A program made the position numbers and the translations under genes. This document shows positions 8,633 to 55,997 of a DNA stretch of 64,000 bases, in pieces; the first letter of the stretch is position 1; every line of letters starts with the position of its first letter. Below the pieces are notes generated by a model. The model made no database searches. It had not been told where the DNA came from and saw nothing but the letters and a program-made list of their open reading frames with translations. This stretch comes from Natronoarchaeum mannanilyticum (GTDB lineage Archaea > Halobacteriota > Halobacteria > Halobacteriales > Natronoarchaeaceae), in contig NZ_BAAADV010000001.1 of NCBI RefSeq assembly GCF_039522665.1, positions 806,001 through 870,000 on the forward strand, given 5' to 3'.

Positions 8633-10327
8633 TCAGTGCCCCGCGTCGTGGGGGTTCATCTCCGTACCGTACTGCTCGGCGTGGTCGGTGTAGTCGATGA
8701 AGCGCGGCGCGTCGGGGTCGAAGGGGCGCTCCAGCGAGTCGAACGCCTTCTTCTTGTCCCAGCTCTGGAGGCCGCCAACGGCGCCCCGATCCTCCAGATC
8801 GTGGTACTCCAGGTCGGGCTCGGTCAGCTTCCAGGCGTCCAGCCCCGTCTCGGTGCGGACGATCACGCTGGAAAACTCGTCGCTCGAACCGACCGACCCC
8901 ACGGTCAGGTCCGCGCAGTAGCCGGTGAAGTCGGCGCACTCGTCGCAGCCCTTGAGGGCGGCGTCGTGGAAGTTCTCGACGTCCTCGATCAGGAGCGACT
9001 CGCCGTCGTGGTCGTAGACGCGCATCTCGCCGTCGAGCACGTCCATCTTCCCGATCTCGTCGGGTGAGATGCCGCGCTCTTCCTCTAACTGTTCGCCCAT
9101 CAGCGAGTAGTAGTTGAAGTTCTTCGTGCACATCAGCGCGACCGTGTAGTCGATCGCCCGGACGCCGGCGTCCTGACTCTGGTAGTCCCACTCGAAGTCC
9201 TGCAGCGCGCGGATCCCCTCTATCTCGCAGGGCGTGCCCACGAGCGCGAGCGAGAGGTCTTCGGGATCCTCGTCGGGGAGCTTGTGCTCCCACTGGTCGA
9301 GTCCGAGGTTGCCCAGCGCCATCGTCTGGTTGTAGATCGTCCCGGTGTTCTCGATCAGCTCCTCGGGCGTGGTCGCGAGGAAGCTCTCGGCCTTCCAGGC
9401 CTCCTCGTCGGACTCGGTCGCGATCAGCGCGCCGTCGATCTCGCCCGCCTCGAGCAGGTGGATCAGGACGCTCGTGACGACGCCGCCGTCCTGGCTGCCC
9501 TCGCGCCAGTCGTCCTCGACGCGCGCGGAGAACTCCGTGATCGGGTCGCCCGCGCCCGAGACGTTGTCGTCGCCCCCGGTGATCTTCCACTGGCGCTCGT
9601 AGCGCAGCCCGCCGCGCGGGCAGAAGTCCCAGCACAGCGAGCAGCCCGTGCACATCTTGACGAGCTCCGGCAGATCGTCGTCGCCGATGCCGATCGAGTC
9701 GGAGGGGCACGCCGCGACGCAGGTGCCACACTGGATACACCTGCCCTCGTCGATGACGGCCTCGTCGAGCTCCATGAACCAGGTCTTCTCGTCGGGCGTC
9801 TCGATGTCGTTCATCGCCGAGCGGATCTCGTAGCCCGGCGTCTCCAAGTCGGCGCCCTCCGGCAGCTGGACGCGCCTGTCCGGCGGATCGGAGCCCTCGC
9901 CGTCGATCTCCTGACTGACGCCCTCCGCGGGGTCGGTGAACTCGACGTTAACGAGCTGGCCGTCCGGCGAGACGTTGGCGGGCGTCGCTCCGCCGTCCGC
10001 GACTGCCCGCTCGCCTCCGCCGTCGTCGCAGCCGCAGGAACTGCAGCCGCAGTCGTCGCCCGACTCGTCCGGGGTTACCCCGTCAGAAGCGGCGTCCCCG
10101 GCGTCCGTATCGTCCTCCGGTCCGACCTGATCGGCCGGGACCGTTCCCGACTCGGTCGCCGGACGCTCGACGCCGGCGCCGTCGACGCTCGGCACCGACG
10201 CGGCGTCCTCGCGAGGCGACGCCGAGCGAGGGCTCGACGAACTCTGTTCGTCGGCGTCCTCGTCGTCCGCTGTCTCGGGGACGCCGGGGAGTGGCTGATC
10301 GTCGGCGTTCGGGTCCTCGCTAGTCAT
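8633..10327 (-). CDS. FrhB-like coenzyme F420 dehydrogenase beta-subunit family protein with 2[4Fe-4S]
   Basis: 564 residues. Order: an acidic, probably disordered N-terminal region (1-130) containing a dense CGCSSCGC cysteine cluster near residues 92-99; a two-cluster ferredoxin domain (CIQCGTCVAACP, then CTGCSLCWDFCPRGG, about 196-240); then the FrhB N and C domains with NYYSLMGEQL and CDECADFTGYCADLTVG. FrhB/FpoF/HCAR-type proteins bind FAD and pass electrons between F420 (or ferredoxin) and iron-sulfur clusters. Its ATG overlaps the end of the sulfite reductase gene by 8 bp, so the two are almost certainly translated together. I infer an electron donor role for that reductase. One linker segment (DEQSSSSPxSASxRxDA pattern) is an in-frame palindromic insertion. 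Confidence 0.85.
   Translation of the reverse strand: MTSEDPNADDQPLPGVPETADDEDADEQSSSSPRSASPREDAASVPSVDGAGVERPATESGTVPADQVGPEDDTDAGDAASDGVTPDESGDDCGCSSCGCDDGGGERAVADGGATPANVSPDGQLVNVEFTDPAEGVSQEIDGEGSDPPDRRVQLPEGADLETPGYEIRSAMNDIETPDEKTWFMELDEAVIDEGRCIQCGTCVAACPSDSIGIGDDDLPELVKMCTGCSLCWDFCPRGGLRYERQWKITGGDDNVSGAGDPITEFSARVEDDWREGSQDGGVVTSVLIHLLEAGEIDGALIATESDEEAWKAESFLATTPEELIENTGTIYNQTMALGNLGLDQWEHKLPDEDPEDLSLALVGTPCEIEGIRALQDFEWDYQSQDAGVRAIDYTVALMCTKNFNYYSLMGEQLEEERGISPDEIGKMDVLDGEMRVYDHDGESLLIEDVENFHDAALKGCDECADFTGYCADLTVGSVGSSDEFSSVIVRTETGLDAWKLTEPDLEYHDLEDRGAVGGLQSWDKKKAFDSLERPFDPDAPRFIDYTDHAEQYGTEMNPHDAGH
10203..10254 (-). repeat. In-frame palindromic element, type 1, copy A
   Basis: A 52-bp segment inside the FrhB-like gene. 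It matches 42 of 52 positions with 19875-19926 in an unrelated gene, is read in the same frame and strand, and contains a 7-bp stem (GACGAAC / GTTCGTC, loop TCT) whose one changed base pair is compensated in the other copy. Confidence 0.65.
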
Positions 10328-12059
10328 CCGCGGCCACCCCCTTCGACACGGGCGCGTCGGCGTCTCGCATGATCGCCCGGAGCCGGTCGTTGTCGACGCC
10401 GCGAGTCCACTCGTAGAACCGCTCGCCGTCCGCCCGATCCTCCGCGTAGGCGTCGAACAGCTGTTCGAGCGCCGGGATCACGGCGTCCGCTGGGACGGCG
10501 CTCTCGACCCAGTCGAGGAACTCGTTGTCCGACCCGAGGCTGCCGCCCAGCCCGAAGTCCATCCCCTCGACGAGGTCGTCGGCGTCGCCGTCATCGTCGG
10601 TGTCGAGTTGGACGGTCTCCCCCCGAAATCCGATATCGGCGATCTGGGGCTGGGCGCAGGAGGCCGAGCAGCCCGACATGTGCATCCGCACGACGTCCAG
10701 ATCGTCCGGCGTCTCGATCTGCGCGTCGAGCTCGCGCGCCCAGCGCTTCGTGCGCTTCTTGGTCTCGATGATGCCGTAGTTGCAGAACTCGCTGCCCGTG
10801 CAGCCCACCGCGCCGCGCGAGAACGGGCCGGGATCGGGCTGGTAGTCCGCCGCGAACGGTTCCGCGAGGAGGTCGTCGACGTTCTCCGCCGGAATATGGG
10901 TGATCAGGAAATTCTGGTCGGTCGCGAGGCGGACCGTCGACTCGTCGGTGCCGTACTCGCGGGCCGCCCGCGCCGCCGCGGCGAACTCGTCGCCGCCCAT
11001 CCGGCCCGTGATCACGTTGAAGCCGACGTATTTGAGCCCGTCCTCGCGCTGGTCGTGGACGCCGACGTGGTCGCCGGCGTACCCCTCGGTGAGGTCGGTG
11101 CCCCGCTCGTGCAGGTCGACCGAACAGCGCTCGCGGATGGCTTCCTCGAATTTCTCGGGACCGAGCTGCTCGACGAGGTAGCGCATCCGGCAGACGCCGC
11201 GGTTGTTCCGATCGCCCAGCTCTTTGAACGTCTGGGCGACCGCGCGGCAGAACTCGACGGCGTCCTCGGGCAGGACGAACACGTCCAGGTTCGAGGCCAT
11301 CCGCGGACCGTCAGAGAGCCCGCCGCCGACGCGGGCGTGGAAGCCGTAGTACTCCTCGCCACCGTCGGACCCGTCCGACGAGCCTCCGGCTTCGCCGGAG
11401 ACGTCGATCTCCTTCCTGGCGGGCGTCATGCCGACGTCGTTGATCTGGGACTGCGCGCAGTCGTGCTTGCAGCCGGTGATCGTCATCTTGAACTTCCGCG
11501 GAAGGTTGCCGTACTCCCGGTTCTCGGTGAAAAAGTCCGAAACTGTGTCGATGACGGGCTGGGCGTCGAAGCACTCGTGGTCGTCCAGCCCCGCGGCGGG
11601 ACAGCCCAGCACATTGCGCGCCGAGTCGCCGCAGCCCTGGATCGTCGTCAGCCCGACCTCGTCGTACCGGTCCCAGATCTCGGGGACGTCCTCGATCTCG
11701 ACCCAGTGTTTCTGGATGTCCTGGCGCGTCGTGATGTCGAGGTAGGCGTCGCCCCACAGCTCGTTCTGCTCGGCGCCGCCGTGTTCGTCGGGCGCGGTGG
11801 CGTACTCGTCGGCGACCTCGCCGATCACCTCGGCCTGCTCGGGCGTCAGGCGCCCGCCCGGCACCTTCGTCCGCATCATGTAGTAGTCCTCGTGCTTCCC
11901 GTGGGCGTACATCCCGGCCCACTTCAGGCGCTCGAACTCGCCGTCGTCCTCGGCCGCGACGATCTCCTCGAACCCCAGCCCCTTCTCGGCGTACTCCTTG
12001 ACGTCCTCGATGACGTCCAGCGGGTGCTTGTCCTGCTTCCACTGCTCTACCGTATTCAT
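10320..12059 (-). CDS. Assimilatory-type sulfite reductase (siroheme, [4Fe-4S])
   Basis: 579 residues, a duplicated nitrite/sulfite-reductase fold. The siroheme-cluster cysteines are visible as CTGSEFC (C420, C426) and CSASC (C464, C468). The active-site stretch reads PRKFK (K189, K191): plant and bacterial sulfite reductases have Lys-x-Lys here, nitrite reductases Lys-x-Asn, so sulfite is the predicted substrate. It would reduce sulfite to sulfide with six electrons for cysteine synthesis. Start: ATG 12059 with a strong GGAGGTG Shine-Dalgarno 6 bp upstream; an in-frame GTG at 12068 would overlap that site. It overlaps the FrhB-like gene, its likely redox partner. A second in-frame palindromic element lies at residues about 222-235. 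Confidence 0.85.
   Translation of the reverse strand: MNTVEQWKQDKHPLDVIEDVKEYAEKGLGFEEIVAAEDDGEFERLKWAGMYAHGKHEDYYMMRTKVPGGRLTPEQAEVIGEVADEYATAPDEHGGAEQNELWGDAYLDITTRQDIQKHWVEIEDVPEIWDRYDEVGLTTIQGCGDSARNVLGCPAAGLDDHECFDAQPVIDTVSDFFTENREYGNLPRKFKMTITGCKHDCAQSQINDVGMTPARKEIDVSGEAGGSSDGSDGGEEYYGFHARVGGGLSDGPRMASNLDVFVLPEDAVEFCRAVAQTFKELGDRNNRGVCRMRYLVEQLGPEKFEEAIRERCSVDLHERGTDLTEGYAGDHVGVHDQREDGLKYVGFNVITGRMGGDEFAAAARAAREYGTDESTVRLATDQNFLITHIPAENVDDLLAEPFAADYQPDPGPFSRGAVGCTGSEFCNYGIIETKKRTKRWARELDAQIETPDDLDVVRMHMSGCSASCAQPQIADIGFRGETVQLDTDDDGDADDLVEGMDFGLGGSLGSDNEFLDWVESAVPADAVIPALEQLFDAYAEDRADGERFYEWTRGVDNDRLRAIMRDADAPVSKGVAADD
11358..11402 (-). repeat. In-frame palindromic element, type 2, copy A
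   Basis: About 45 bp in the sulfite reductase gene coding SGEAGGSSDGSDGG. Two hairpins in tandem: CCGGC-GAA-GCCGG and GTCGGAC-GG-GTCCGAC, joined by GGCTC. The same layout, with GGCTCGTC between the stems, recurs in the MBL-fold gene at 17633-17684. Confidence 0.55.
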
Positions 12060-12065
12060 TTCAAG

Positions 12066-12072
12066 CACCTCC
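12066..12072 (-). promoter_or_regulatory. Strong Shine-Dalgarno before the sulfite reductase gene
   Basis: GGAGGTG on the minus strand, 6 bp before ATG 12059. Haloarchaeal messages are mostly leaderless or lack such sites, so this one decides the start and implies a 5' leader. Confidence 0.6.
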
Positions 12073-45394: not shown

Positions 45395-45739
45395 TTACCA
45401 GTCGACCGACAGCGTCCCGTCGCCGTGGGGGTCGGGAGCGAGCTCCTCGTCGGTCCGCCGGTCGATCACGTGGATGCAGCCATCGCCCTTCTTGGCGGGA
45501 CAGACCTCCGCCGCCCGGACGTTGTGATCGAGATCGTCCTCGCCGACGTAGTACGAGCGGGGTTTGGCCATCTCGCTTTTGAGGTCCATCTCCCAGTTCT
45601 TCGAGACCTCGGCGCACTTGCCCGCGCCGAAGCACTTGTTCGCCTCGAAGATGATCTTGTAGGGCTTCTCCTCGACCGGCGGGGCGTCGGCGCTCCCGAC
45701 GTCGCTGGGATCCTGGATCTCGGCATCGAGGTCGCTCAT
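45395..45739 (-). CDS. Ferredoxin, single [4Fe-4S] type
   Basis: 114 residues with exactly four cysteines: C36, C42, C80 and C88, the spacing of single-cluster ferredoxins (CxxxxxC...CPAKKGDGC). It lies 65 bp downstream of the first channel gene on the same strand, so they may form an operon. It is a candidate electron donor for the nitrite reductase of the island (inference). ATG 45739. Confidence 0.8.
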   Translation of the reverse strand: MSDLDAEIQDPSDVGSADAPPVEEKPYKIIFEANKCFGAGKCAEVSKNWEMDLKSEMAKPRSYYVGEDDLDHNVRAAEVCPAKKGDGCIHVIDRRTDEELAPDPHGDGTLSVDW

Positions 45740-45804
45740 TGTTCGTATCTGGGGTCGTTCCGACTTTCAGGTTTCGGTGTTCGATCGAAAGAGCGGCCCG
45801 CCGG

Positions 45805-46644
45805 TCAGTCGTCGTCGCTGACGACGACGTTCCCGGTCTGGGTCGAGGTGTCTTCGAGGCCCCAGTTCCAGGAGTAGCCGTACGACGACGTCACGTAGTA
45901 GTAGGCGGCGCCCATGCAGACGACGCCGCTGACGATGTTGCCCGCCGTGACGATGGTGAGGTTGTACGCCATCCCCTGCCAGGAGACGCCGGCGGCGCCC
46001 GGGACGACGACGTTCGCCAGCCCGAGGATGCTCATGTTGGCGATGCTGTGCTCGAAGCCGGAGCCGACGAACGCCAGCAGGCACCACCAGACCATGATGA
46101 GCTTGGCGACCGGGTTCTCCAGCTGGAAGTTGCTCCACACGGCGAGCACGACCAGCCAGTTACAGAGGATCGCGCGGGTGAACAGCTCGATCGCGGGCGC
46201 GTTCATCTTGTAACTGCCGACCGACGCGAGCAGCGAGCCGTCGGGGAACACGCCCGCGAGGAACGCCAGCCCGACGATCAGCATCGAGCCCATGAGGTTG
46301 CCGATCCAGGAAACGCTCCAGACCGTGCCGAGGTCGCTCCACGTCGTGCGATCGGTGAGCGCGCCGACGGACATGATCATCGCGTTGCCCGTGAACAGCT
46401 CCGAGCCCGCGACGATGACCAGCGACAGCGCGATGCCGAACACCGCGGCCATCACGATGCCGCGGACCGGCTCGAACACCGTCTGGTACAGCGACTGGCC
46501 GAAGATGAACGTCATCACGACGGCGAAGGCGATGTACACGCCCGCCATCCCGGAGTGGACCAGGTACGCCGGGAGGCTCTTCTTGATGAGCTCGACCTGC
46601 GCGGCAGCGGCGTCGCTGATGTCGGTCAGAGAGTCCTCGTACAT
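45805..46644 (-). CDS. Formate/nitrite transporter (FNT) family channel, paralogue 1
   Basis: 279 residues, six hydrophobic segments. FNT hallmarks: GSELFTGNAMIM (the first pore loop, usual motif SELFTGN), a NPVAKLIM stretch and GFEHSIANM with the conserved second-pore-side His. Members carry nitrite, formate, or hydrosulfide as pentameric channels. Given cyanase and nitrite reductase nearby, nitrite or cyanate are candidates; both are small monovalent anions. ATG 46644 is the family start; the upstream 147 bp are open but basic and not family-like. Confidence 0.87.
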   Translation of the reverse strand: MYEDSLTDISDAAAAQVELIKKSLPAYLVHSGMAGVYIAFAVVMTFIFGQSLYQTVFEPVRGIVMAAVFGIALSLVIVAGSELFTGNAMIMSVGALTDRTTWSDLGTVWSVSWIGNLMGSMLIVGLAFLAGVFPDGSLLASVGSYKMNAPAIELFTRAILCNWLVVLAVWSNFQLENPVAKLIMVWWCLLAFVGSGFEHSIANMSILGLANVVVPGAAGVSWQGMAYNLTIVTAGNIVSGVVCMGAAYYYVTSSYGYSWNWGLEDTSTQTGNVVVSDDD

Positions 46645-47146
46645 CCTAGGTACCCCCCTCCGCGCCCGTCGAACGGTGACGCTTCGTCCAGTTTCCGGGG
46701 GCGTCGACGCGAGGTCGTCCACCGACCGCGGCGACAAAGCGGCGAGTGGTTGAACAAATACTGTTTTCCCGCGTATCGGTGCCAAATCCAAACCCTATTT
46801 CCAAGTTTGCTGACTTCATGTTCATATCTCGTCTGCCTTCTCGGATGAATGGCCAACCTGTGCGAACTTAGGTCTATCGATCTAAACGGCTGAAACGGCC
46901 AAATTCATACAGTACAATCCCGGATAACCAGTAATAGCTTCATCAAGACGGTTAATGATTGGTCGAACGTCAACCGTCCGGCAGCGACGGCGACCGCCGG
47001 CGGTTCGGCCGGTGGCCGTCGGATCTCCGGCCCGTAGCCGAGAGCGCCGGGGTCCGACCGCTCCGACCTCCGATACCGAGCCCGACCGAATTCGCCAGCC
47101 GTTTTCGCCGCACGTCGAAAAAGGGGATTCGTTTCCGATCGAACGA
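46645..47146. other. Intergenic region between the two channel genes
   Basis: 502 bp, AT-rich in the middle, no gene. It contains the candidate operator at 46752-46766 and presumably the paralogue-1 promoter; no clean TATA box was found. Confidence 0.5.
46752..46766. promoter_or_regulatory. AACA-N5-TGTT inverted repeat upstream of FNT paralogue 1
   Basis: GAACA-AATAC-TGTTT, 108-122 bp upstream of the ATG. The same spacing and orientation occurs before dabB and nirA. Here it may overlap the TATA box, so its regulatory meaning is weaker. Confidence 0.35.
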
Positions 47147-47992
47147 TCAGTCGTCGTCCTGGGAGGCCGCGGTGCCGGCGCCGACGTTCATCGCGACGTT
47201 GTCCTCCATGCTCCACTCGTACTCGATGCCGTACGAGGTGGAGATGTAGTAGTAGACGGCGCCCAGGCAGAACACGCCGCTGGCGACGTTGCCGGCCGTG
47301 ACGATCGCGATGTTGTACGCCATGCCCGACCACGAGACCGCCGGGTCCGCGATTGGCAGGAGGTTCGCCGAGGTCAGGATCGCCATGTTGGCGATGCTGT
47401 GCTCGAAGCCGGCGCCGATGAACACCAGCAGGCACCAGAAGATCATGATGAGCTTGGCGACCGGGTTCTCCAGGCGGAAGTTACACCACACGGCGAGCAC
47501 GATCAGCCAGTTACACAGCATCGCCCGGAGGAACAGCTCCAGGGGAGCCATGGTCATCTTGGCGGCGCCGATGGCCGCGAACGGTTCGGTCGGCAGCGTT
47601 CCCGAGCCGACGAGCATCGCGGCGATGATCACCGAGCCGATCAGGTTGCCGATCCACGACCACGCCCAGACCTTCAACGTCGCGCCCGCGGGGACGCGGC
47701 CGGTGAGCTGACCGATCGTCATGATCATCGCGTTGCCCGTAAACAGCTCCGAGCCCGCCATGATGACCAGCGACAGCGCGATCCCGAAGCTGGCGCCCAT
47801 CACGATGCCCTGGAACGGCTCGAACTGGGTCCCCATGAGATCGCCCGCGAAGATGAAGGCGATCGCGACCCCGAAGCCGAGGTAGGCCCCGGCTAGCGCC
47901 GAGTGCGCGAGGTACGCCAGTAAGCGTTTGTTGATCAACTCCATCTGCGCGGCCGCCGCGCCCGAGACGTCCTCGATGGTTTCGCTGTACAT
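47147..47992 (-). CDS. Formate/nitrite transporter (FNT) family channel, paralogue 2
   Basis: 281 residues, close to paralogue 1 along its length (GSELFTGNAMIM, NPVAKLIM, GFEHSIANMAIL). Six hydrophobic segments; acidic C-terminal tail. ATG 47992 chosen; GTG/ATG codons up to 48004 add MVLT. Tandem duplication with divergence suggests two substrates or two expression modes. No AACA-N5-TGTT motif was found upstream. Confidence 0.87.
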   Translation of the reverse strand: MYSETIEDVSGAAAAQMELINKRLLAYLAHSALAGAYLGFGVAIAFIFAGDLMGTQFEPFQGIVMGASFGIALSLVIMAGSELFTGNAMIMTIGQLTGRVPAGATLKVWAWSWIGNLIGSVIIAAMLVGSGTLPTEPFAAIGAAKMTMAPLELFLRAMLCNWLIVLAVWCNFRLENPVAKLIMIFWCLLVFIGAGFEHSIANMAILTSANLLPIADPAVSWSGMAYNIAIVTAGNVASGVFCLGAVYYYISTSYGIEYEWSMEDNVAMNVGAGTAASQDDD

Positions 47993-48511
47993 GGTCAGTA
48001 CCACCTCGCTTCGGTCGCACCGGACCGCACTACGGTTGACGTCCGTACGCTGCTGCCCACGTTAGCAGTCGTTTCGGTCATTTGTTTCCAGTTCCGAGAA
48101 TCAATTGAACACATATAACGCTAATCCTTGGATGCCTGCTTTCGCCTTAACCACTATTATGCCACAAAGGGGTTATTCCGCGAATCGACCCGCCGTCCCG
48201 GACGGGCACCCAGCTTCTGGTAGCGAGTCGAGGGACCGACGCCGAAACTCGGGTCGCACCTGCGCCCGCGGAGCACGTCGAGAGTACCCGCGAAAGCTCT
48301 CGAAGCGGGTGATTTCGGTTCATTGTACGTCGCCAGCCCCAGTACTGGCCCGTACGAGTGATCGCCACCGTACCGTCTTTGGAGCGACGCATATCCATAT
48401 TTTTGAGTTATACCTGGACGAACATCCTAATATAGTCCATTTACACTAGCAGACTACCCCTAATATCAGGAGAAAACTTTAATATATCCTCTGCAACCTC
48501 GCAGATGGGAA
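47993..48511. other. Divergent intergenic region between FNT paralogue 2 and cyanase
   Basis: 519 bp. No gene is supported. TTTAATATATCC (48478-48489) is a strong TATA box placed for a leaderless cyanase message. A GTTATATGTG box (about 48110-48119, minus strand) could serve the channel gene. Confidence 0.5.
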
Positions 48512-48976
48512 ATGATCCCACGCAACGAGATCAACGACAAGTCGGAGACGCGCAGCAAGATCCTCGCGGCCAAAGAGGAGAAAGGAATGACGTTCTCGGA
48601 CATCGCCGAGCAGGTGGGCGGCGACAAGACGTTCCTCGCGTCGGCGACCTACGACGCCGCGAGCATGACGAAAGACGACGCGATGGCGTTCGCGGAGGTG
48701 CTCGACCTCGGTCGCGACGTCGTCGAGGAGCTCCAGAAGCCGCCGATGAAGGGCCAGGGCGAGCCGACGATCCCGTCGGACCCGTGTCTCTACCGCTTCT
48801 ACGAGGTCCCGCAGGTGTACGGGCCGGCGATGAAGGCGCTCATCCACGAGGAGTTCGGCGACGGCATCATGAGCGCGATCGACTTCGAGGTCAGCGTGGA
48901 CAAGGAGCCCCACCCGGAGGGCGACCACGTCGTTATCACGTACGACGGGAAGTTCCTGCCGTACAAGCGCTGGTAG
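48512..48976 (+). CDS. cynS: Cyanase (cyanate hydratase)
   Basis: 154 residues. The catalytic triad aligns exactly with the E. coli enzyme offset by one: R95 (LYRFYE), E98 and S121 (IMSAIDF). N-terminal HTH-like domain and the C-terminal YKRW end are normal. Reaction: cyanate plus bicarbonate gives ammonia and two CO2. No CynT carbonic anhydrase or CynX transporter is present. The TATA box at 48478-48489 makes ATG 48512 leaderless. Confidence 0.95.
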   Translation: MIPRNEINDKSETRSKILAAKEEKGMTFSDIAEQVGGDKTFLASATYDAASMTKDDAMAFAEVLDLGRDVVEELQKPPMKGQGEPTIPSDPCLYRFYEVPQVYGPAMKALIHEEFGDGIMSAIDFEVSVDKEPHPEGDHVVITYDGKFLPYKRW

Positions 48977-49167
48977 GCGCCGCCGCGCGGTAGCCGATTT
49001 CTTCTTACGGTTCTATCGATACTGGCGGTTCCGTTCTACGCAGCTTGGTTCCGCTTGTTGCCGGTCGATGTCGGTAGAGCAGTTCATAGCGTGTTCTCGT
49101 ACGCCACCGAATAGAAGTAGTATCGCGGCGCCTTCAGACGTACTGCGTCACTCCTCGATGGCGTGTG

Positions 49168-49530
49168 TTAGTGCCGGTGTTCGTTCTGTCGTTGGGCTTC
49201 CGAGATGAAAAGCAGAAACGCAATCGTTCCCATGAATAAAACCACAAATGGGAGCGTCGTATCGCCTTGTTGCCCGTAGTACTGTGCGAGCGCCATCGGA
49301 CTCACACAGAGGCCGAACAGGCCAATAGCGTAGCCGAGCTTGTCTATTGGGTTGTCGAATTGGGTAGCACTGCCAAGGAGGGAAATATCGTATGCAAAAT
49401 AGAAGTACCCCGCACCAGCGTAAACCGCCGCTATCCCTGCCCCGATAAACCAGTTAGTGGAGAGAAACCAGTACGTACCGAGTCCCACTAACAGCCCACA
49501 GAGGACGGCGAGGGGGAGGTTCTTGTCCAT
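49168..49530 (-). CDS. Small four-helix membrane protein, AT-richer than neighbours
   Basis: 120 residues, four hydrophobic segments (LAVLCGLLVGLGTYWFL, FIGAGIAAVYAGAGYFYF, LGYAIGLFGLCVSPMAL, LPFVVLFMGTIAFLLFI). GC is visibly lower than around it, with AT-rich third positions, suggesting recent acquisition. No family recognised. It sits between cyanase and dabB and may be a passenger. Confidence 0.6.
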   Translation of the reverse strand: MDKNLPLAVLCGLLVGLGTYWFLSTNWFIGAGIAAVYAGAGYFYFAYDISLLGSATQFDNPIDKLGYAIGLFGLCVSPMALAQYYGQQGDTTLPFVVLFMGTIAFLLFISEAQRQNEHRH

Positions 49531-49689
49531 ATCAGCAGTGTATCGAGTAGACGTATAACCCTGGTGCCAGTTGGATAAGTTCGATGTGCGCGGATGTCTT
49601 TCTGCAGACGTTGGATTCGCGGTTCCACTGATCGGGCCGTCGAGTGCAGCCGAAAAAGAAGGACCACAGGGAGCTGCCGATCGCTCGCG

Positions 49690-51123
49690 CTACTCGCTCC
49701 GCGTCGGGATCGTCTTCGGATCGGGCTGGGAGGAGTTCAGCAACGCGACGTAGAGGCGACCGTTCTCGCGGTGCCAGCCGGTTTCGAGCGCGATGTGGCC
49801 GAGCACGAACAGCCCCAGCACGAGCCAGTGGATCGGCGTCATCTCCAGGTGGGGATGGATCATCGGCAGCCCGCCCATCATCGCGGAGATGCCGTTGTAG
49901 ATTCCGGCGTACACCGCGACGGCGGGCAGCAGGGACAGCGGGATCGCCACCGCGCGGGCCAGCGGCGATAGCGACGCCTGCCCGACGAGCGTCCGGGTGC
50001 CCCGCAGCGCCGAGAGCACGACGATCGCGGTGAGGAACACGCCCGTCCCCGGCCCAGTCAGGCTCTTACCGGTGAGCTGGGCGAACAGCACGCCGGCGGC
50101 GATCGCCGCGAGGACGCCGACGCCGAACGTGAGCGCTTTCGATCCGGCACCCTTCTTCGATTTCTTCGGCGGGACCTTCTCGACGCGGGAACCGACCGAG
50201 AGGAACATGTACGCCTTGTAGAACCCGTGGACGATCAGGTGCGTGACGGCCGCGGCGAAGAAGCCGAGCCCGCACTGCAGGATCATAAAGCCCATCTGGG
50301 CCACGGTCGAGCAGCCGAGCCGCCCCTTCGCGGAGGGCTTGACCAGCATCCACGCCTGCGCGAGCACGGCGCTGACCGCGCCGGCGACGACGACCACGAG
50401 CATGACGACGACGTCGCCGGCGAACACGGGCGCCAGCCGGCTCAGCAGGACGCCGCCGGCGTTGACGAAGCCGGCGTGCATCATCGCGGAGGCGGGCGTC
50501 GGGGCGGTCATCGACGACAGTAGCCAATTGTGGAACGGGAACAGCGCGGACTGGATCATCGCGGCGCTCAGGATCAGCCCGGCGGCGACGGCGGTGGTGG
50601 CGGGCGACAGGCCCGCCACGTTCGCCAGGATTTCGGAGATGGCGGTCGCCCCGGTCGCCGCGCTCAGAACGGCCAGCCCGGCCCCGAGCAGGACGCTTCC
50701 GGCGAGGAAGTACCGGCGCGCGAGCCCGCCGGCGGCGTCGGCCTGCGGCCAGTCCCGGACGTGGCCGATCAGGTCGGCCATGATCAGCCCCATCGACGTC
50801 CACGCCAGAACAAAGAGGGCGACGTGGTCGGCCGCGGTCAGCAGCATGACGACCAGCGTCAGCAGGAAGACGAGGCCGAAGAAGCGCTCGACGTCGGGAT
50901 CGGCGGCCATGTACCGACGCGAGAAGCTGTGGACGATCCCGCTGAAGAAGGCGACCGCCACCCACATGACCGCGGTCAGCCCGTCGATGCGGACGATTCC
51001 GTCGATCGTCAGTACGCCCCCCGGCCCCGCCATCCACGCGGCGACGGCCGCGTTGACGACGAACAGCGCCCAGACGAGGCGAGTCGATGCGCTCGGCAAC
51101 CAGTTCACACGTTTGGCGGACAT
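49690..51123 (-). CDS. dabB: DabB: NuoL-like membrane subunit of the DAB inorganic-carbon complex
   Basis: 477 residues, about 13-14 hydrophobic segments, with the proton-conducting transporter pattern: GIVHSFSRRYM, HNWLLSSMTAPTPASAMMHAGFVNAGGVLLSRLAP, and KPSAKGRLGCSTVAQMGFMILQCGLG. The LSSMTAPTPASAMMHAGFVN stretch is close to NuoL/MrpA. DabB moves cations to power DabA. It lies 194 bp downstream of dabA on the same strand; a TATA-like box (CATATATAG, about 51208-51216) and an operator-like repeat suggest its own promoter. ATG 51123. Confidence 0.87.
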   Translation of the reverse strand: MSAKRVNWLPSASTRLVWALFVVNAAVAAWMAGPGGVLTIDGIVRIDGLTAVMWVAVAFFSGIVHSFSRRYMAADPDVERFFGLVFLLTLVVMLLTAADHVALFVLAWTSMGLIMADLIGHVRDWPQADAAGGLARRYFLAGSVLLGAGLAVLSAATGATAISEILANVAGLSPATTAVAAGLILSAAMIQSALFPFHNWLLSSMTAPTPASAMMHAGFVNAGGVLLSRLAPVFAGDVVVMLVVVVAGAVSAVLAQAWMLVKPSAKGRLGCSTVAQMGFMILQCGLGFFAAAVTHLIVHGFYKAYMFLSVGSRVEKVPPKKSKKGAGSKALTFGVGVLAAIAAGVLFAQLTGKSLTGPGTGVFLTAIVVLSALRGTRTLVGQASLSPLARAVAIPLSLLPAVAVYAGIYNGISAMMGGLPMIHPHLEMTPIHWLVLGLFVLGHIALETGWHRENGRLYVALLNSSQPDPKTIPTRSE

Positions 51124-51215
51124 CCGTTTCTACTCATCAAATGTCCATTGTATCGGTTAAATCCTCTGTATAAGACCAACTGCGATCGTTTAATCCCTAA
51201 AACAGAGCTATATAT

Positions 51216-51230
51216 GGACAAACTGTGTTC
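51216..51230. promoter_or_regulatory. Candidate operator upstream of dabB
   Basis: GGACA-AACTG-TGTTC, 93-107 bp upstream of the ATG and about 11 bp upstream of the TATA centre. The 12-mer ACAAACTGTGTT recurs exactly before nirA at 56102-56113. Confidence 0.5.
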
Positions 51231-51317
51231 GCACGTCCAGTTCTTTCGTGCGCTCAGTGATGCCGGTGCGCCCCCGTCGAGAAACCGTCGCCGAAGAACG
51301 GCCCGACCGGTCGGTTC

Positions 51318-53975
51318 TCAGTCCGCGGACGCCGGCGGCGCGGCGGCGGGCGGGACCTCCCGCTCGGACTCCCACTCCAGATCGCCCCGGTAGTGGAACG
51401 CCTCGTTCCCTCGTTCGGGGTCCAGCACGGTCAGTTTCAGCCAACCGTTGTCGAAGAGTCGGCGGACCGCCTCGTTCTCGCTGAGGATCCGTTCGATCCG
51501 ATCGACGGGCGCCTGAATCAGCGTCGTCAGGCGCAGCGGCGAGTGGTACGCCTCGCCGGCGTCGTCGTGGAGCGACTGGAACGGCAGCCCCATCCGGATG
51601 TCGCCGCCGTTGCCCTGGTAGACGCCGACCTTCCCGACGGGGTTGTGCGTGACCTTCGTGCCGCTCCCGTAGACGTCGTTGTCGACCGTCGAGAAGTAGT
51701 ACTGGGCGCTGATCATCTGGACGACGACCAGCGGTCCGACCATGATGTTCTCGAGGGCGTCGCCGTCGGGGTCGGTCGCCCAGTCGTACGTGTGGAGGAA
51801 GGCGCGCCCGTCGAGGTCGGCGTCGCTGGTCAGCTCGCGGCGTCCGATGACGAACCCGGCGTTACCCGAGAGGCCGATCTCGGGGCGCGGTTCGGCCCAG
51901 TCGGCCGCGCGACGCTCGGTCTCCCGCGCGCTCTCGGCGGGCGCCTCGCCGTCGATCGTCTCGACGCGCTCGGCGGTCGCACCCTCTCGGGCCGTCTCGA
52001 GATCCGCTTCGAGCCGCTCGAACACGTCGGGATGGCGCTCCCGGGCGTCCGCGTCGGCAAAGAGGGTGACCTCGTCGGTCGTCGTGTTGTGCTCGGCGGC
52101 GACGAACACCGTCTCCTCGGGGATCTCGTGGCCGCGCTCGCGCAGGTTCGCGCGGACCTCGGGGTCGTTGCAGATCTCGGCCAGCGCGCGGGCGTTCGGG
52201 ACGCCGGAGCTGCCGGCGCAGGCGCCGCAGTCGATGCTCGACTCGTAGGGGTTGTTCACCGTCTGGCTGGCGTGGCCGGCGAACACGACGACCGGTGCAA
52301 ACTCGTCCCAGCCCATCAGATCGAAGGCGGCCTCGGCGTAGTAGGTGCGCTGCTCGGTCGAGATCCCCGCCGGGAGGTCGTGTTCGGGTTCGAGCGCGAG
52401 CGTCTCCTCGGCGGCCGTCTCCGAAGACAGCTCGTCGGCGGGCGGCGACGCGGTCCCGGGTTCGGAGTCGTCCTCGCCCGCCTCGTCGGGATGGTCGACG
52501 CCGGGCTCGCAGAACGCCTCGTCACGCGGCGCGCCCGCGTTCTCCCGGAGGTCGTACATCCGCGAGGGCAGCAGGGTCCGGGCGGTCAGCGCCGCGCCGA
52601 AGAACCCGCCGGCGCCCTCGACGAAGCCGAACGCGCCCGCGACGTCGTTCTTGAGCGACTTCATCAGCTTGTGGCCCGCGTGGGACAGCGAACTCCAGCG
52701 GTCGTGGCGCTCGGCCGGCGCGTCCTCGGTCGGACGCTCGGCGACGCGGTGCTTGGGATCGACCATCACCGGGCAGGAGTCGGTCGAGACGTGCTCGCCG
52801 TACTCCTCGTGTCTGATCGGGATGCCGAAGAAGCCGGCGTACCCGTGGGTCTCGTAGGGCCCGGAGTCCTCGATGTGCCGCCGGATGATCTCCGAGCGGG
52901 TGTCGATGCAGAACACGAGCTGGGCGGCCGGCGCGTCGACGTCGCCGCCGCTGGACGCCGGTTCCGGGTCTGCGTCGGCCACCGTCTCGCCGCCGTCGGG
53001 CGACGCCGTCGCCGCCGCGGCGTCGGCGGACCTCGGCGTCGGCGCGTCGGCGTCCGCCTCGGAACCCGACGTCGACGCGCCGACCGACGCGTCGACGGCG
53101 TCGACGAGATCCCGCCGGTAGCTCTCCTCCCAGGCGTCGAGCCAGACCTCGGGGAGCGGCGGCTCCTCGTCCGCGTCGCCCGTGGACTCGGCGCTCGCCT
53201 CGGGCGCGATCGGCTCGCCCATGTGCTTGGCGAGGATCAGGCGCACCGCGAGGTAGTCGACCAGCGTGATCGGGTAGGCGTCCTGCCAGGGGTTGTTCTC
53301 GTCTTGCTCGCGCTGCTTGATCAGCCCGGTCCAGCCCGGCAGCGCAGCGAGGTGGTGCTCGAAGATCTCCTCCCAGCGCTCCTCGGAGTGGTCGGCGAGG
53401 ACGGCGTACAGCGCCTCCATCGCCGTGTCGGGCAGGTCGGTCAGCCGGTCGCGGTAGAACGACGCCACCGGCGTCTCCGACGCGGGGATGTCGGCGTCGT
53501 ACTTCGCGAGGGCGCTCCAGGCCGCGTAGAACCCCTCCTCCCGGTTCGGCATGGCCCACGCGGTCTCGCCCTGATCGAGGAATGCGGCGAGCCACTTCGA
53601 GAGCAGCCGGTCGAGGGGGTCGTCGCCAGCCTCGCCCGGAGATTCGTCTTCGGCGTCCGCCATCCGGTCGAGCAGCGCCTCGGGGTCGTCCTCGAACCCG
53701 GCGGCAGCGAGGCGCTCGGACAGCAGATCGGGGTCGATCTCGCCGCGCTCCCAGGCCCGCCGGAAGTAGTCGGCGGGCGGGTAGCCGCGGCCGCCGTAGA
53801 GCGCTTCGCCCCGCGTCACCGCCTCGTCGAACGGCAGATCCTCGAATCCCGACAGCGGGTTGGCCGCCACGTCTGCGTACAGCGGCCAGACCCGGCCGAT
53901 GCTCTCGGCCGCGTTGTCGACGCGAGCGCGCACCGAGTGCGGCCCAACAGTGCCCGAGTGGTTGTCTTCACTCAT
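51318..53975 (-). CDS. dabA: DabA (DUF2309): carbonic-anhydrase-like subunit of the DAB complex
   Basis: 885 residues from ATG 53975. The zinc and catalytic residues of DabA are present: C356 and D358 (VFCIDTRSE), H568 (FAGHASQTV) and C583 (IDCGACAG); the 15-residue gap between the last two equals that of the characterised bacterial protein. With DabB it converts incoming CO2 to bicarbonate in an energy-coupled, one-way reaction. Two acidic low-complexity inserts (about 262-350 and 495-540) flank the catalytic Cys, as if halophile-specific. The open frame starts 24 bp earlier but ATG 53975 fits a TATA near 54015. Confidence 0.9.
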   Translation of the reverse strand: MSEDNHSGTVGPHSVRARVDNAAESIGRVWPLYADVAANPLSGFEDLPFDEAVTRGEALYGGRGYPPADYFRRAWERGEIDPDLLSERLAAAGFEDDPEALLDRMADAEDESPGEAGDDPLDRLLSKWLAAFLDQGETAWAMPNREEGFYAAWSALAKYDADIPASETPVASFYRDRLTDLPDTAMEALYAVLADHSEERWEEIFEHHLAALPGWTGLIKQREQDENNPWQDAYPITLVDYLAVRLILAKHMGEPIAPEASAESTGDADEEPPLPEVWLDAWEESYRRDLVDAVDASVGASTSGSEADADAPTPRSADAAAATASPDGGETVADADPEPASSGGDVDAPAAQLVFCIDTRSEIIRRHIEDSGPYETHGYAGFFGIPIRHEEYGEHVSTDSCPVMVDPKHRVAERPTEDAPAERHDRWSSLSHAGHKLMKSLKNDVAGAFGFVEGAGGFFGAALTARTLLPSRMYDLRENAGAPRDEAFCEPGVDHPDEAGEDDSEPGTASPPADELSSETAAEETLALEPEHDLPAGISTEQRTYYAEAAFDLMGWDEFAPVVVFAGHASQTVNNPYESSIDCGACAGSSGVPNARALAEICNDPEVRANLRERGHEIPEETVFVAAEHNTTTDEVTLFADADARERHPDVFERLEADLETAREGATAERVETIDGEAPAESARETERRAADWAEPRPEIGLSGNAGFVIGRRELTSDADLDGRAFLHTYDWATDPDGDALENIMVGPLVVVQMISAQYYFSTVDNDVYGSGTKVTHNPVGKVGVYQGNGGDIRMGLPFQSLHDDAGEAYHSPLRLTTLIQAPVDRIERILSENEAVRRLFDNGWLKLTVLDPERGNEAFHYRGDLEWESEREVPPAAAPPASAD

Positions 53976-54011
53976 TTGCTCTGGACGAACGTAGACCAAC
54001 AGATAAGAGTT

Positions 54012-54025
54012 CTGTATGTATACAG
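54012..54025. promoter_or_regulatory. Inverted repeat at the dabA promoter
   Basis: CTGTAT-GT-ATACAG, a perfect 6-2-6 repeat 37-50 bp upstream of the dabA ATG, overlapping the expected TATA box. A repressor site there would block dabA. Different from the AACA-N5-TGTT motif. Confidence 0.4.
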
Positions 54026-54224
54026 TATTAATCCGCGTACGTCCTAAAACACTATTATCGCGGAGCGGCGTCCGCGCCGATCCGGACAGCGCACGGGCGG
54101 GACTGTTCGGAGTCTCGTCCGATCCCGAATCGGAAGATGGGCGCAGCGGAAGAAACGGGCGTCAGTCGTCGGACTATTCGTCCGATATCACGATCACTCG
54201 GCCCGTACGAGCACTCGCGACCGA

Positions 54225-55997
54225 TTAATCGTCGGACGGAAGCGGCTCGCCGCTCGGATCGGTCGGCGCCGGGCTCTCGCCGTCGGCGAAGGGGTACCAC
54301 GACTGCTTGGCGTCGTTGAGGCAAGGATCCTCGTACCCGTCGGCCTCCTCGGGCTCGGCCAGCTCGACCAGCGCCTCCTCGCCGGTGGCCTCGACCCACT
54401 GGCGGAACGTCTGGCCCTCCTGGCGGTGGGCGGCGAACGCCTGGGTGAGATTCTTGATCAGCCCCGGCACCTCGTCGGCGGGGACGCGCTGGCGGATCCA
54501 GTCGATGAACGTCGGCTCCTCGCCGATGCCGCCGCCGACGCCGACGTCCATCGCCTCGACCATCTCGCCGTCCTTCCGGGCGCGCATTCCCTGAAGGCCG
54601 ATGTCCGCGGTCATCGCCTGCCCGCAGTCGGCCGTGCAGCCCGAGTAGTGGATCTTGATGCGCTCGACGTCGTCCTGCAGGTCGACGTTCTCGCGGAGCC
54701 AGCGCAGCATGCGGGCCATGCGCGCCTTCGTCTCCGTGAGCGCGAGCCCGCAGAACTCCGTGCCCGTGCAGGCGACGGCGCCGCGCTGGAACGGGTTCGG
54801 CTCGGGCTTGTGGGTTTCCAGCAGCGTCTCCTCCAAGAGCGCGTCCAGATCCTCGTCGGGAACGTCCATGATGATCGGGTTCTGGCGGCGGGTGAGCCGC
54901 ACCTCGCCCGAGCCGTACTCCTCGGCGAGGTCGGTGAGCTCGATCGCCTCCTCGGCAGTGATCCGGCCGACCGGCACGCTCAGGCCGACGTAGTTGCGGC
55001 CGTCGGGCTGGTCGTGGACGCCGACGTGATCCGACTTTCCGGCCTGAACCGGGCGACCCGCGTTGTACGTGTACTCGTCGCGGACGTCCTCGCCGGCCTC
55101 CCGTAGCTCGAAGTCGACGTAGTGCTCGTCGAGCACCTTGCGGATCTTGGTCGTGCCCCAGTCGTCGACGAAGAACCGGGCCCGGTTCTTGTTGCGATTT
55201 TCGCGGTTGCCAAGCGCGTGGTACAGCTCGACGAAGCCCCGAACCAGCTCGTAGGCGTTGTCCGGCGTGACGAACACGTCGAGCTCGCGCGCCTCGCGGG
55301 GTTCGCGACCACCCAGGCCGCCGCCGACGCGGACGTTGAATCCGCGGACAGCTTCCCCGTCGATCTCCTTCTCGGCGGGTTCGAGCCCGACGTCGTTGAT
55401 CGAGTCCTGCGCGCAGCCCTCGCAGCAGCCCGTGACGCTGATGTTGAACTTCCGGGGCATGTTCGCGAGCGCGTCGTCGCCCCGCAGGTCCTCCTGCAGG
55501 CGGTCGAGCAGCTCGCGCGTCTCGACGAGTTCGTTCTCGTCCTTGCCGGCGACGGGACAGCCCGAGATGTTGCGCATCGTGTCGCCGCCCGCCGAGCGCG
55601 TCGTGACGCCGACCGATTCGAGCTTGTCCCAGATCTCGGGGACGTCCTCGAGCTTGATCCAGTGGAGCTGGACCGACTGGCGGGTCGTGAAGTCGATCCA
55701 GGCGTCGCCGAACTCGGGGTTCTCGACGGGCCCTTTCGCGTACTCGTCGGCGACCTCGGCGATCGCCCGGAGTTGGCCGGGTTCGAGCATCCCGTCGCAG
55801 TTGGTGAGCCGCATCATGAAGTAGCTCTCCTGGCCGGAGCGCTGGTGGAACACGCCCCAGAACTTGAACCGGGAGAACCACTTGTCGGCCTCTTCGTCGG
55901 GAATCGACTCCCAGCCCTTCTCCGCGAACTCGAGGAGCTTTTCGCGCACTTCGTCGCCGTACATTCCGTCCTTCCACTTCTCTTTTTTGTGAGGCAT
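54225..55997 (-). CDS. nirA: Ferredoxin-nitrite reductase (siroheme, [4Fe-4S])
   Basis: 590 residues. Siroheme-cluster cysteines: CTGTEFC (C410, C416) and CTADC (C454, C458). The active-site stretch is PRKFN (K183, N185): Lys-x-Asn, the nitrite-reductase form. Reduces nitrite to ammonium with six electrons from ferredoxin. The N-terminus MPHKKEKWKDGMYGDEVREK resembles the haloarchaeal assimilatory enzyme. A TATA-like TTCTATAAG (about 56084-56092, minus strand) and an inverted repeat at 56100-56114 lie upstream. No nitrate reductase gene is nearby, so nitrite, not nitrate, may be the intended source. Confidence 0.88.
   Translation of the reverse strand: MPHKKEKWKDGMYGDEVREKLLEFAEKGWESIPDEEADKWFSRFKFWGVFHQRSGQESYFMMRLTNCDGMLEPGQLRAIAEVADEYAKGPVENPEFGDAWIDFTTRQSVQLHWIKLEDVPEIWDKLESVGVTTRSAGGDTMRNISGCPVAGKDENELVETRELLDRLQEDLRGDDALANMPRKFNISVTGCCEGCAQDSINDVGLEPAEKEIDGEAVRGFNVRVGGGLGGREPREARELDVFVTPDNAYELVRGFVELYHALGNRENRNKNRARFFVDDWGTTKIRKVLDEHYVDFELREAGEDVRDEYTYNAGRPVQAGKSDHVGVHDQPDGRNYVGLSVPVGRITAEEAIELTDLAEEYGSGEVRLTRRQNPIIMDVPDEDLDALLEETLLETHKPEPNPFQRGAVACTGTEFCGLALTETKARMARMLRWLRENVDLQDDVERIKIHYSGCTADCGQAMTADIGLQGMRARKDGEMVEAMDVGVGGGIGEEPTFIDWIRQRVPADEVPGLIKNLTQAFAAHRQEGQTFRQWVEATGEEALVELAEPEEADGYEDPCLNDAKQSWYPFADGESPAPTDPSGEPLPSDD

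Follow-up and report, generated by a model that had tools for sequence, protein, structure and literature searches.

The window examined here is a 64-kb stretch of the Natronoarchaeum mannanilyticum genome (NZ_BAAADV010000001.1), and the locus in question occupies its positions 45395-55997. There, the cyanase gene cynS is found together with dabA and dabB, which encode a CO2-hydrating DAB complex, two genes for FNT channels and the nitrite reductase gene nirA. The best explanation of this arrangement, which we consider probable, is that a cyanate-use module, consisting of cynS and its own second DAB, was added to a nitrite-assimilation unit, and that this DAB would recapture CO2 as bicarbonate for cyanase. 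A cyanase–DAB partnership had been put forward in an earlier note made from the sequence alone, and it was strengthened here by co-occurrence, by a private DabA clade, by a shared promoter element and by a residue change, confined to this clade, in what is proposed to be the gate for bicarbonate.

The minus strand of the locus reads, in order, nirA, dabA, dabB, the gene for a 120-amino-acid membrane protein, FNT2, FNT1 and a ferredoxin-like gene, followed by tRNA-Leu, while cynS is the only plus-strand gene of the cluster and stands back to back with FNT2. A single operon was rejected, as cynS opposes FNT, the dab genes are inverted in other genera, and the gaps measure about 160–250 bases. 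Our survey comprised 394 haloarchaeal genomes, labeled below with G-numbers, G000 being the genome of the window. Another Natronoarchaeum species (G180) has the identical gene order with one FNT gene instead of two, and the additional cluster FNT is peculiar to G000. In three Haloarcula-type genomes (G302, G387, and Haloarcula rara SHR3), the order is FNT< cynS> dabA< dabB> nirA>, with dabA and dabB divergent rather than in line as in G000 and G180. Haloarcula rara comes as a sixth case on top of the five found in the survey. This linkage, which recurs in G180 and, reordered, in the three Haloarcula-type genomes, goes beyond chance. In G337, which belongs to another family, cynS is flanked by a conserved upstream gene on one side and by FNT-nirA-cobA on the other; the dabA–dabB pair, here divergent, is located 570 kb from cynS, yet the genome retains the two.

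Four genomes of the genus of G337 (g43) carry FNT-nirA at the equivalent spot, without cynS and without the DabA type that accompanies it (linked DabA). FNT-nirA is therefore a separable unit to which cynS and the dab genes are additions, and nitrite was likely its original substrate, since it stands without cynS. A tie of the DAB to nirA or FNT was rejected on the same four genomes. The locus is thus composed of two layers: an FNT-nirA nitrite unit, and cynS with a second, distinct dabAB, these being tied together. The other haloarchaeal cynS type, present in one genus and as a broken copy in G243, is about 42–51% identical and has none of the cluster neighbors and no special dab pair. The copy of G243 (L051, about 9796-10306) is split over two frames and is either broken or affected by a sequencing error.

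The association was also evident at the level of the whole survey, in which cynS was present in 10 genomes and DabA in 242. When the 394 genomes were searched with a profile of linked DabA, scores of 1528–1656 bits were obtained in exactly the five genomes with an FNT-linked cynS, the next score being 1175; the profile was built from those five genomes and Haloarcula rara, so this gap is partly built in, and the tree serves as the independent check. In the tree, which sampled six linked, 36 ordinary haloarchaeal, and four bacterial DabA, the linked sequences formed one clade (Shimodaira–Hasegawa approximate likelihood ratio test, SH-aLRT, 99), sister to the 36 ordinary haloarchaeal ones. The linked cynS likewise formed one group (support 94/92). 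The five survey genomes represent three genera of three families, and the genus-level coincidence (the same three of 86 genera) has a chance of about 1e-5. The earlier note had proposed to look for dabAB at up to 10 kb from cynS in haloarchaea; all five genomes with FNT-linked cynS possess the special dab pair, four of them within that distance. In the genus of G337, the sampled relatives with FNT-nirA and without cynS have only ordinary DabA.

A shared promoter element, TWTTAGG, was first seen by eye in aligned upstream regions, as TTTTAGG before dabA and dabB and as TATTAGG, on either strand, before cynS. At no more than 150 bases from the start codon, it was present in all 18 promoters of these genes in the six cynS-cluster genomes (6/6 for each of cynS, dabA, and dabB), including those of the unlinked cynS and dab pair of G337. 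It was found in none of the six nirA and seven FNT promoters of the cynS clusters and in two of 266 other genes, one of them the ordinary dabB of G000. Since that was also the only one of 24 ordinary dabB promoters to contain it, a DAB-wide promoter motif was rejected. When every 7-mer with a single degenerate position was tried on nine promoters (three genes from three lineages), TWTTAGG alone occurred in all nine, and in 300 dinucleotide shuffles the best pattern reached at most six of nine. Between cynS and the dabA promoter, a span of 5.7 kb, there are four sites against 0.15 expected; the whole genome has 93 sites in 3.57 Mb, too many for the element to define a regulon. We infer that cynS, dabA, and dabB are co-regulated via TWTTAGG. 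The single nitrogen/inorganic-carbon island including nirA was not supported as first described, given that FNT-nirA occurs in four related genomes without cynS and this DAB and that nirA and FNT lack the element in the six cynS clusters; nirA is better viewed as a neighbor in nitrogen supply, its co-control with cynS and dab being unsupported by the promoter element.

The window DabA aligns over nearly its full length with the solved DabA2 of Halothiobacillus neapolitanus (9rd0). The Zn ligands C364, H576, and C591 (C351, H524, and C539 of DabA2), the D366/R368 dyad (D353/R355), and the coupling, or finger, Glu E461 (E444) are all kept, in agreement with the earlier claim that the metal and catalytic residues are complete. 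The other positions checked at the Zn site, along the substrate tunnel T1, and in coupling are as in ordinary haloarchaeal DabA. Linked DabA differs at I708 and M762, which replace two Trp that are invariant in 36 ordinary haloarchaeal and four bacterial DabA and which correspond to Trp656 and Trp710 of DabA2. Residue 708 is Ile in 6/6 linked DabA and Trp in 62/62 other haloarchaeal DabA. Trp656 forms the gate of tunnel T2 jointly with Arg653 and Leu629, T2 being the route by which bicarbonate is proposed to leave (PMC13144422); the Trp is a conserved feature of relatives and not family-defining in the literature. The pattern suggests altered bicarbonate release and not loss of function. In the window DabB, Gln and Ser stand where DabB2 of H. 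neapolitanus has the Lys235/Asp185 ion pair, and an ordinary haloarchaeal DabB (L052) likewise has Gln at the Lys235 position.

Cyanase is established to convert cyanate and bicarbonate into ammonium and two CO2, and in the E. coli cyn operon, a beta-carbonic anhydrase prevents the resulting depletion of bicarbonate (PMC7321114). In the mechanism that we propose, cyanate would enter probably via the FNT channel, because cynS-nirC pairs are known in Nitrospirales, with NirC proposed as the cyanate importer (PMC12342949), and cynS-FNT pairs in Acinetobacter. The CO2 released by cyanase would escape from the cell faster than it is rehydrated, draining the bicarbonate of the enzyme. DAB is driven by the proton gradient and hydrates CO2 solely towards bicarbonate (PMC13144422); the window DabAB, judging from its conserved residues and the solved homolog, would do so inside the cell, with cynS, dabA, and dabB presumably switched on jointly through TWTTAGG. 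The cynS-linked DAB would thereby do the job of CynT with an input of energy, while general metabolism would be served by the ordinary DAB and the beta-carbonic anhydrase, both encoded away from the locus. A separate enzyme might be needed because cyanate inhibits beta-carbonic anhydrase, as seen for E. coli CynT2 with an inhibition constant (KI) in the range of 0.25–0.89 mM (PMC7321114), and because one-way hydration may hold bicarbonate in a CO2-leaky cell. A more specific version, to which we subscribe only tentatively, is that this DAB evolved into a form specialized for the use of cyanate. It would be a carbonic anhydrase driven by protons, with its exit gate for bicarbonate altered and its expression coupled to that of cyanase, and possibly adapted to function when cyanate is present.

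Several observations weigh against a bicarbonate-recapturing DAB for cyanase. G000 also has a beta-carbonic anhydrase, 157 kb from the locus, and an ordinary dabAB on another contig (L052), which makes it uncertain that a third system is needed. No gene of this anhydrase family (PF00484) was found near cynS, that one being the nearest and the only one in the genome, and no cynT, cynX, or cynR lies near cynS. The proposal that the DAB replaces CynT consequently holds for the gene cluster only, and the absence of any other carbonic anhydrase from the cell was rejected. The same family is present in nine of the 10 cynS-bearing haloarchaea, the base rate being 89 of 98 haloarchaeal genomes. In addition, the independent lineages are few (three genera), the promoter element was spotted by eye in A+T-rich promoters, and the cyanate-channel role of FNT is drawn from analogy. 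The TTAGG core is also half of an iron-box palindrome found before siderophore genes; the other half is absent from the cynS and dab sites. This palindrome, like TTTTAGGCTAACCTAAAA, is DtxR/IdeR-like (G000:C1:959256-959273 and 960485-960502; L205, L227, L229); it precedes genes for siderophore-binding proteins and for a metal-dependent-type regulator, and its half-site overlaps TWTTAGG.

A further point on the same side is a TATTAGG 76 bases before the large-subunit gene of glutamate synthase in G000 (L225, G000:C1:888189), and the cynS/dab regulon may be part of a wider nitrogen control. Under a nitrogen-stress regulon, the second DAB would supply bicarbonate to general nitrogen assimilation (carbamoyl phosphate, arginine, pyrimidines, and anaplerosis), with cynS a fellow member and not a partner. 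Besides the glutamate synthase site, this would account for the 7-mer before nirA in two of the four g43 genomes that lack cynS and for the nirA of G337 being followed by cobA and arginine genes. We regard it as rather unlikely, given that the linked DAB clade is missing from relatives that have FNT-nirA and lack cynS, and that in the cynS clusters the element is absent before both nirA and FNT.

That the cluster was transferred between lineages as one piece, the dab genes having no functional tie to cynS, would agree with the rarity of cynS (10/394) and the patchiness of the clade, both as horizontal transfer predicts. Yet the set is kept despite differing order and strand between genera, and G337 keeps cynS and dab unlinked with the element before both, which makes such hitch-hiking very unlikely. 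We give scarcely more than a slight chance, and the lowest of all, to a changed substrate, whereby the DAB would handle another small molecule (e.g., cyanate) and no longer make bicarbonate: the W-to-I and W-to-M changes at two positions otherwise invariant in 36 ordinary and four bacterial DabA would fit it, but the Zn ligands, the D/R dyad, the proton-coupling Glu, and the T1 residues remain as in ordinary haloarchaeal DabA. Recapture of CO2 for cyanase is the reading that we prefer.

Parts of this arrangement have counterparts elsewhere. The E. coli cyn operon (cynT-cynS-cynX) similarly pairs cyanase, at the cluster level, with a dedicated CO2-to-bicarbonate enzyme; however, the beta-carbonic anhydrase CynT is soluble and works reversibly, whereas the Natronoarchaeum partner would be a membrane-bound, proton-driven, one-way DAB. 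FNT also adjoins cynS in the cynS-nirC/FNT pairs of Nitrospirales and Acinetobacter (PMC12342949; plasmid NZ_CP059387.1), divergently in Acinetobacter as in the window, but no DAB complex is shown there. In the nitrate-assimilation cluster of a Deinococcus gobiensis plasmid, cynS likewise lies within a nitrite/nitrate assimilation locus, which differs in having nirBD, a molybdopterin oxidoreductase, and an ABC transporter, without DAB and without FNT. The H. neapolitanus DAB2 shares the family, the Zn site, the dyad, and the coupling Glu, but it serves carbon fixation and has Trp at the two positions changed to Ile and Met in the window. The ordinary haloarchaeal dabAB (e.g., HVO_2410/HVO_2411, PMC8305020), with a copy in G000, is also a two-gene complex, 52–54% identical to the window proteins. 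In contrast, it has the order dabB-dabA after an Lrp-type regulator gene (three loci read), and is often beside a beta-carbonic anhydrase gene; TWTTAGG is missing from 23 of 24 of its dabB promoters, and its DabA keeps both Trp. By eye, ordinary dabA lies less than 3 kb (mostly 200–500 bases) from such a gene in about 15 of 98 genomes, examples being G004:C11, G005:C1, G062:C3, G077:C2, G086:C1, G092:C1, G076:C18, and G078:C1. Another link between DAB and nitrogen signaling is seen on Nitrobacter hamburgensis plasmid 1 (L167), where dabA is followed by a PII nitrogen regulator gene, near RuBisCO.

Cyanate lyase has been listed without context in some Haloarcula (PMC12029414). Our literature search returned no mention of cyanase together with DabA, nor of DUF2309 with nitrite reductase, and found no earlier description of a cyanase–DAB partnership, as the earlier note had supposed. 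Known separately are thus cynS-FNT, cynS in nitrite clusters, and haloarchaeal dabAB; new, as far as we found, is the cynS-specific DAB lineage. If true, a DAB specialized for cyanate use would be the first known to us that is dedicated to one enzyme and not to carbon fixation or general low-CO2 growth. The annotation of haloarchaeal DAB has so far been based on homology, with no use known for them; the cyanase-tied clade offers a concrete, testable job and would show that an energy-coupled carbonic anhydrase can take the place of the soluble one used by bacteria. The Trp656-to-Ile change is a natural gate variant for probing bicarbonate release by DAB.

Table 1. Genes and TWTTAGG sites of the cynS–dab locus (window positions)
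Feature	Position	Strand	Matches and remarks
Ferredoxin-like protein	45395-45739	-	Weak Fer4_15, 20.3 bits (below Pfam cut-off); G180 copy 89% identical, equivalent position
FNT channel 1 (NirC-like), additional copy in G000	about 45805-46644	-	PF01226, 202 bits; solved NirC family, E 4e-49
FNT channel 2 (NirC-like)	about 47147-47992	-	PF01226, 197 bits; divergent from cynS; 91% identical to the single cluster FNT of G180
TATTAGG, cynS promoter, distal site	48426-48432	-	
TATTAGG, cynS promoter, proximal site	48459-48465	-	
cynS, cyanase, 154 aa	48512-48976	+	PRK02866, 188 bits (cut-off 150); TIGR00673, 169 (cut-off 113); PDB cyanases, E 4e-32
120-aa membrane protein	49168-49530	-	Unmatched in Pfam and NCBIfam and, by tblastn, in related clusters; not conserved
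dabB, membrane proton-conducting subunit	49690-51123	-	H. neapolitanus DabB2 (9rd0 chain B) best solved relative, E 3e-38; PF00361
TTTTAGG, dabB promoter	51196-51202	-	
dabA, CO2-hydrating DAB subunit	51318-53975	-	PF10070, 842 bits; PDB 9rd0 chain A, E 9e-102
TTTTAGG, dabA promoter	54043-54049	-	
nirA, ferredoxin-type nitrite reductase	54225-55997	-	PF01077/PF03460; NIR_SIR, 168 bits; plant nitrite reductases, E 4e-84

All of the genes initially named (ferredoxin-like, two FNT, cynS, dabB, dabA, and nirA) were found where they had been placed, the ferredoxin-like one with a weak match, and the cyanase triad is intact, R95, E98, and S121 being kept and invariant across the cluster relatives. 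An alternative upstream TTG start would move the end of dabA to 53999; the DabA residue numbers (e.g., I708 and M762) follow the 893-amino-acid reading. DabB is NuoL-like, has DabB2 as its nearest solved relative and is adjoined by dabA, the features by which this DAB subunit is recognized. NirA falls under the NCBIfam equivalog cut-off (432 versus 594 bits) and is taken as a nitrite and not a sulfite enzyme because of its nearest relatives and the FNT linkage. The FNT proteins score over the cut-off of Form_Nir_trans but below that of the NirC equivalog (189 versus 293 bits), and the family does not fix their substrate. The ferredoxin-like protein had no match in a PDB search and is a candidate electron donor for NirA.

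No molybdopterin oxidoreductase was found in G000, G180, and G387 (assemblies 95–99% complete), so that, as far as the assemblies show, these genomes have no nitrate reductase of their own feeding nirA, and a role in nitrate assimilation was rejected for them. G302 has NasA about 9 kb from the cluster. Many haloarchaeal FNT (e.g., G180:C1:200204) lie in open frames of 600–650 amino acids, probably with an extra domain, and the best-scoring short NirC-like FNT sit at FNT-nirA loci. In G049 (L091, about 8743-11391), a second ordinary dabA has one matching stretch with a TGA stop and may be decaying or start further in. Finally, positions 10320-12068 (minus strand) of the window encode a 582-amino-acid protein whose start resembles the N-terminal region of nirA, possibly a second nitrite/sulfite reductase-like enzyme.

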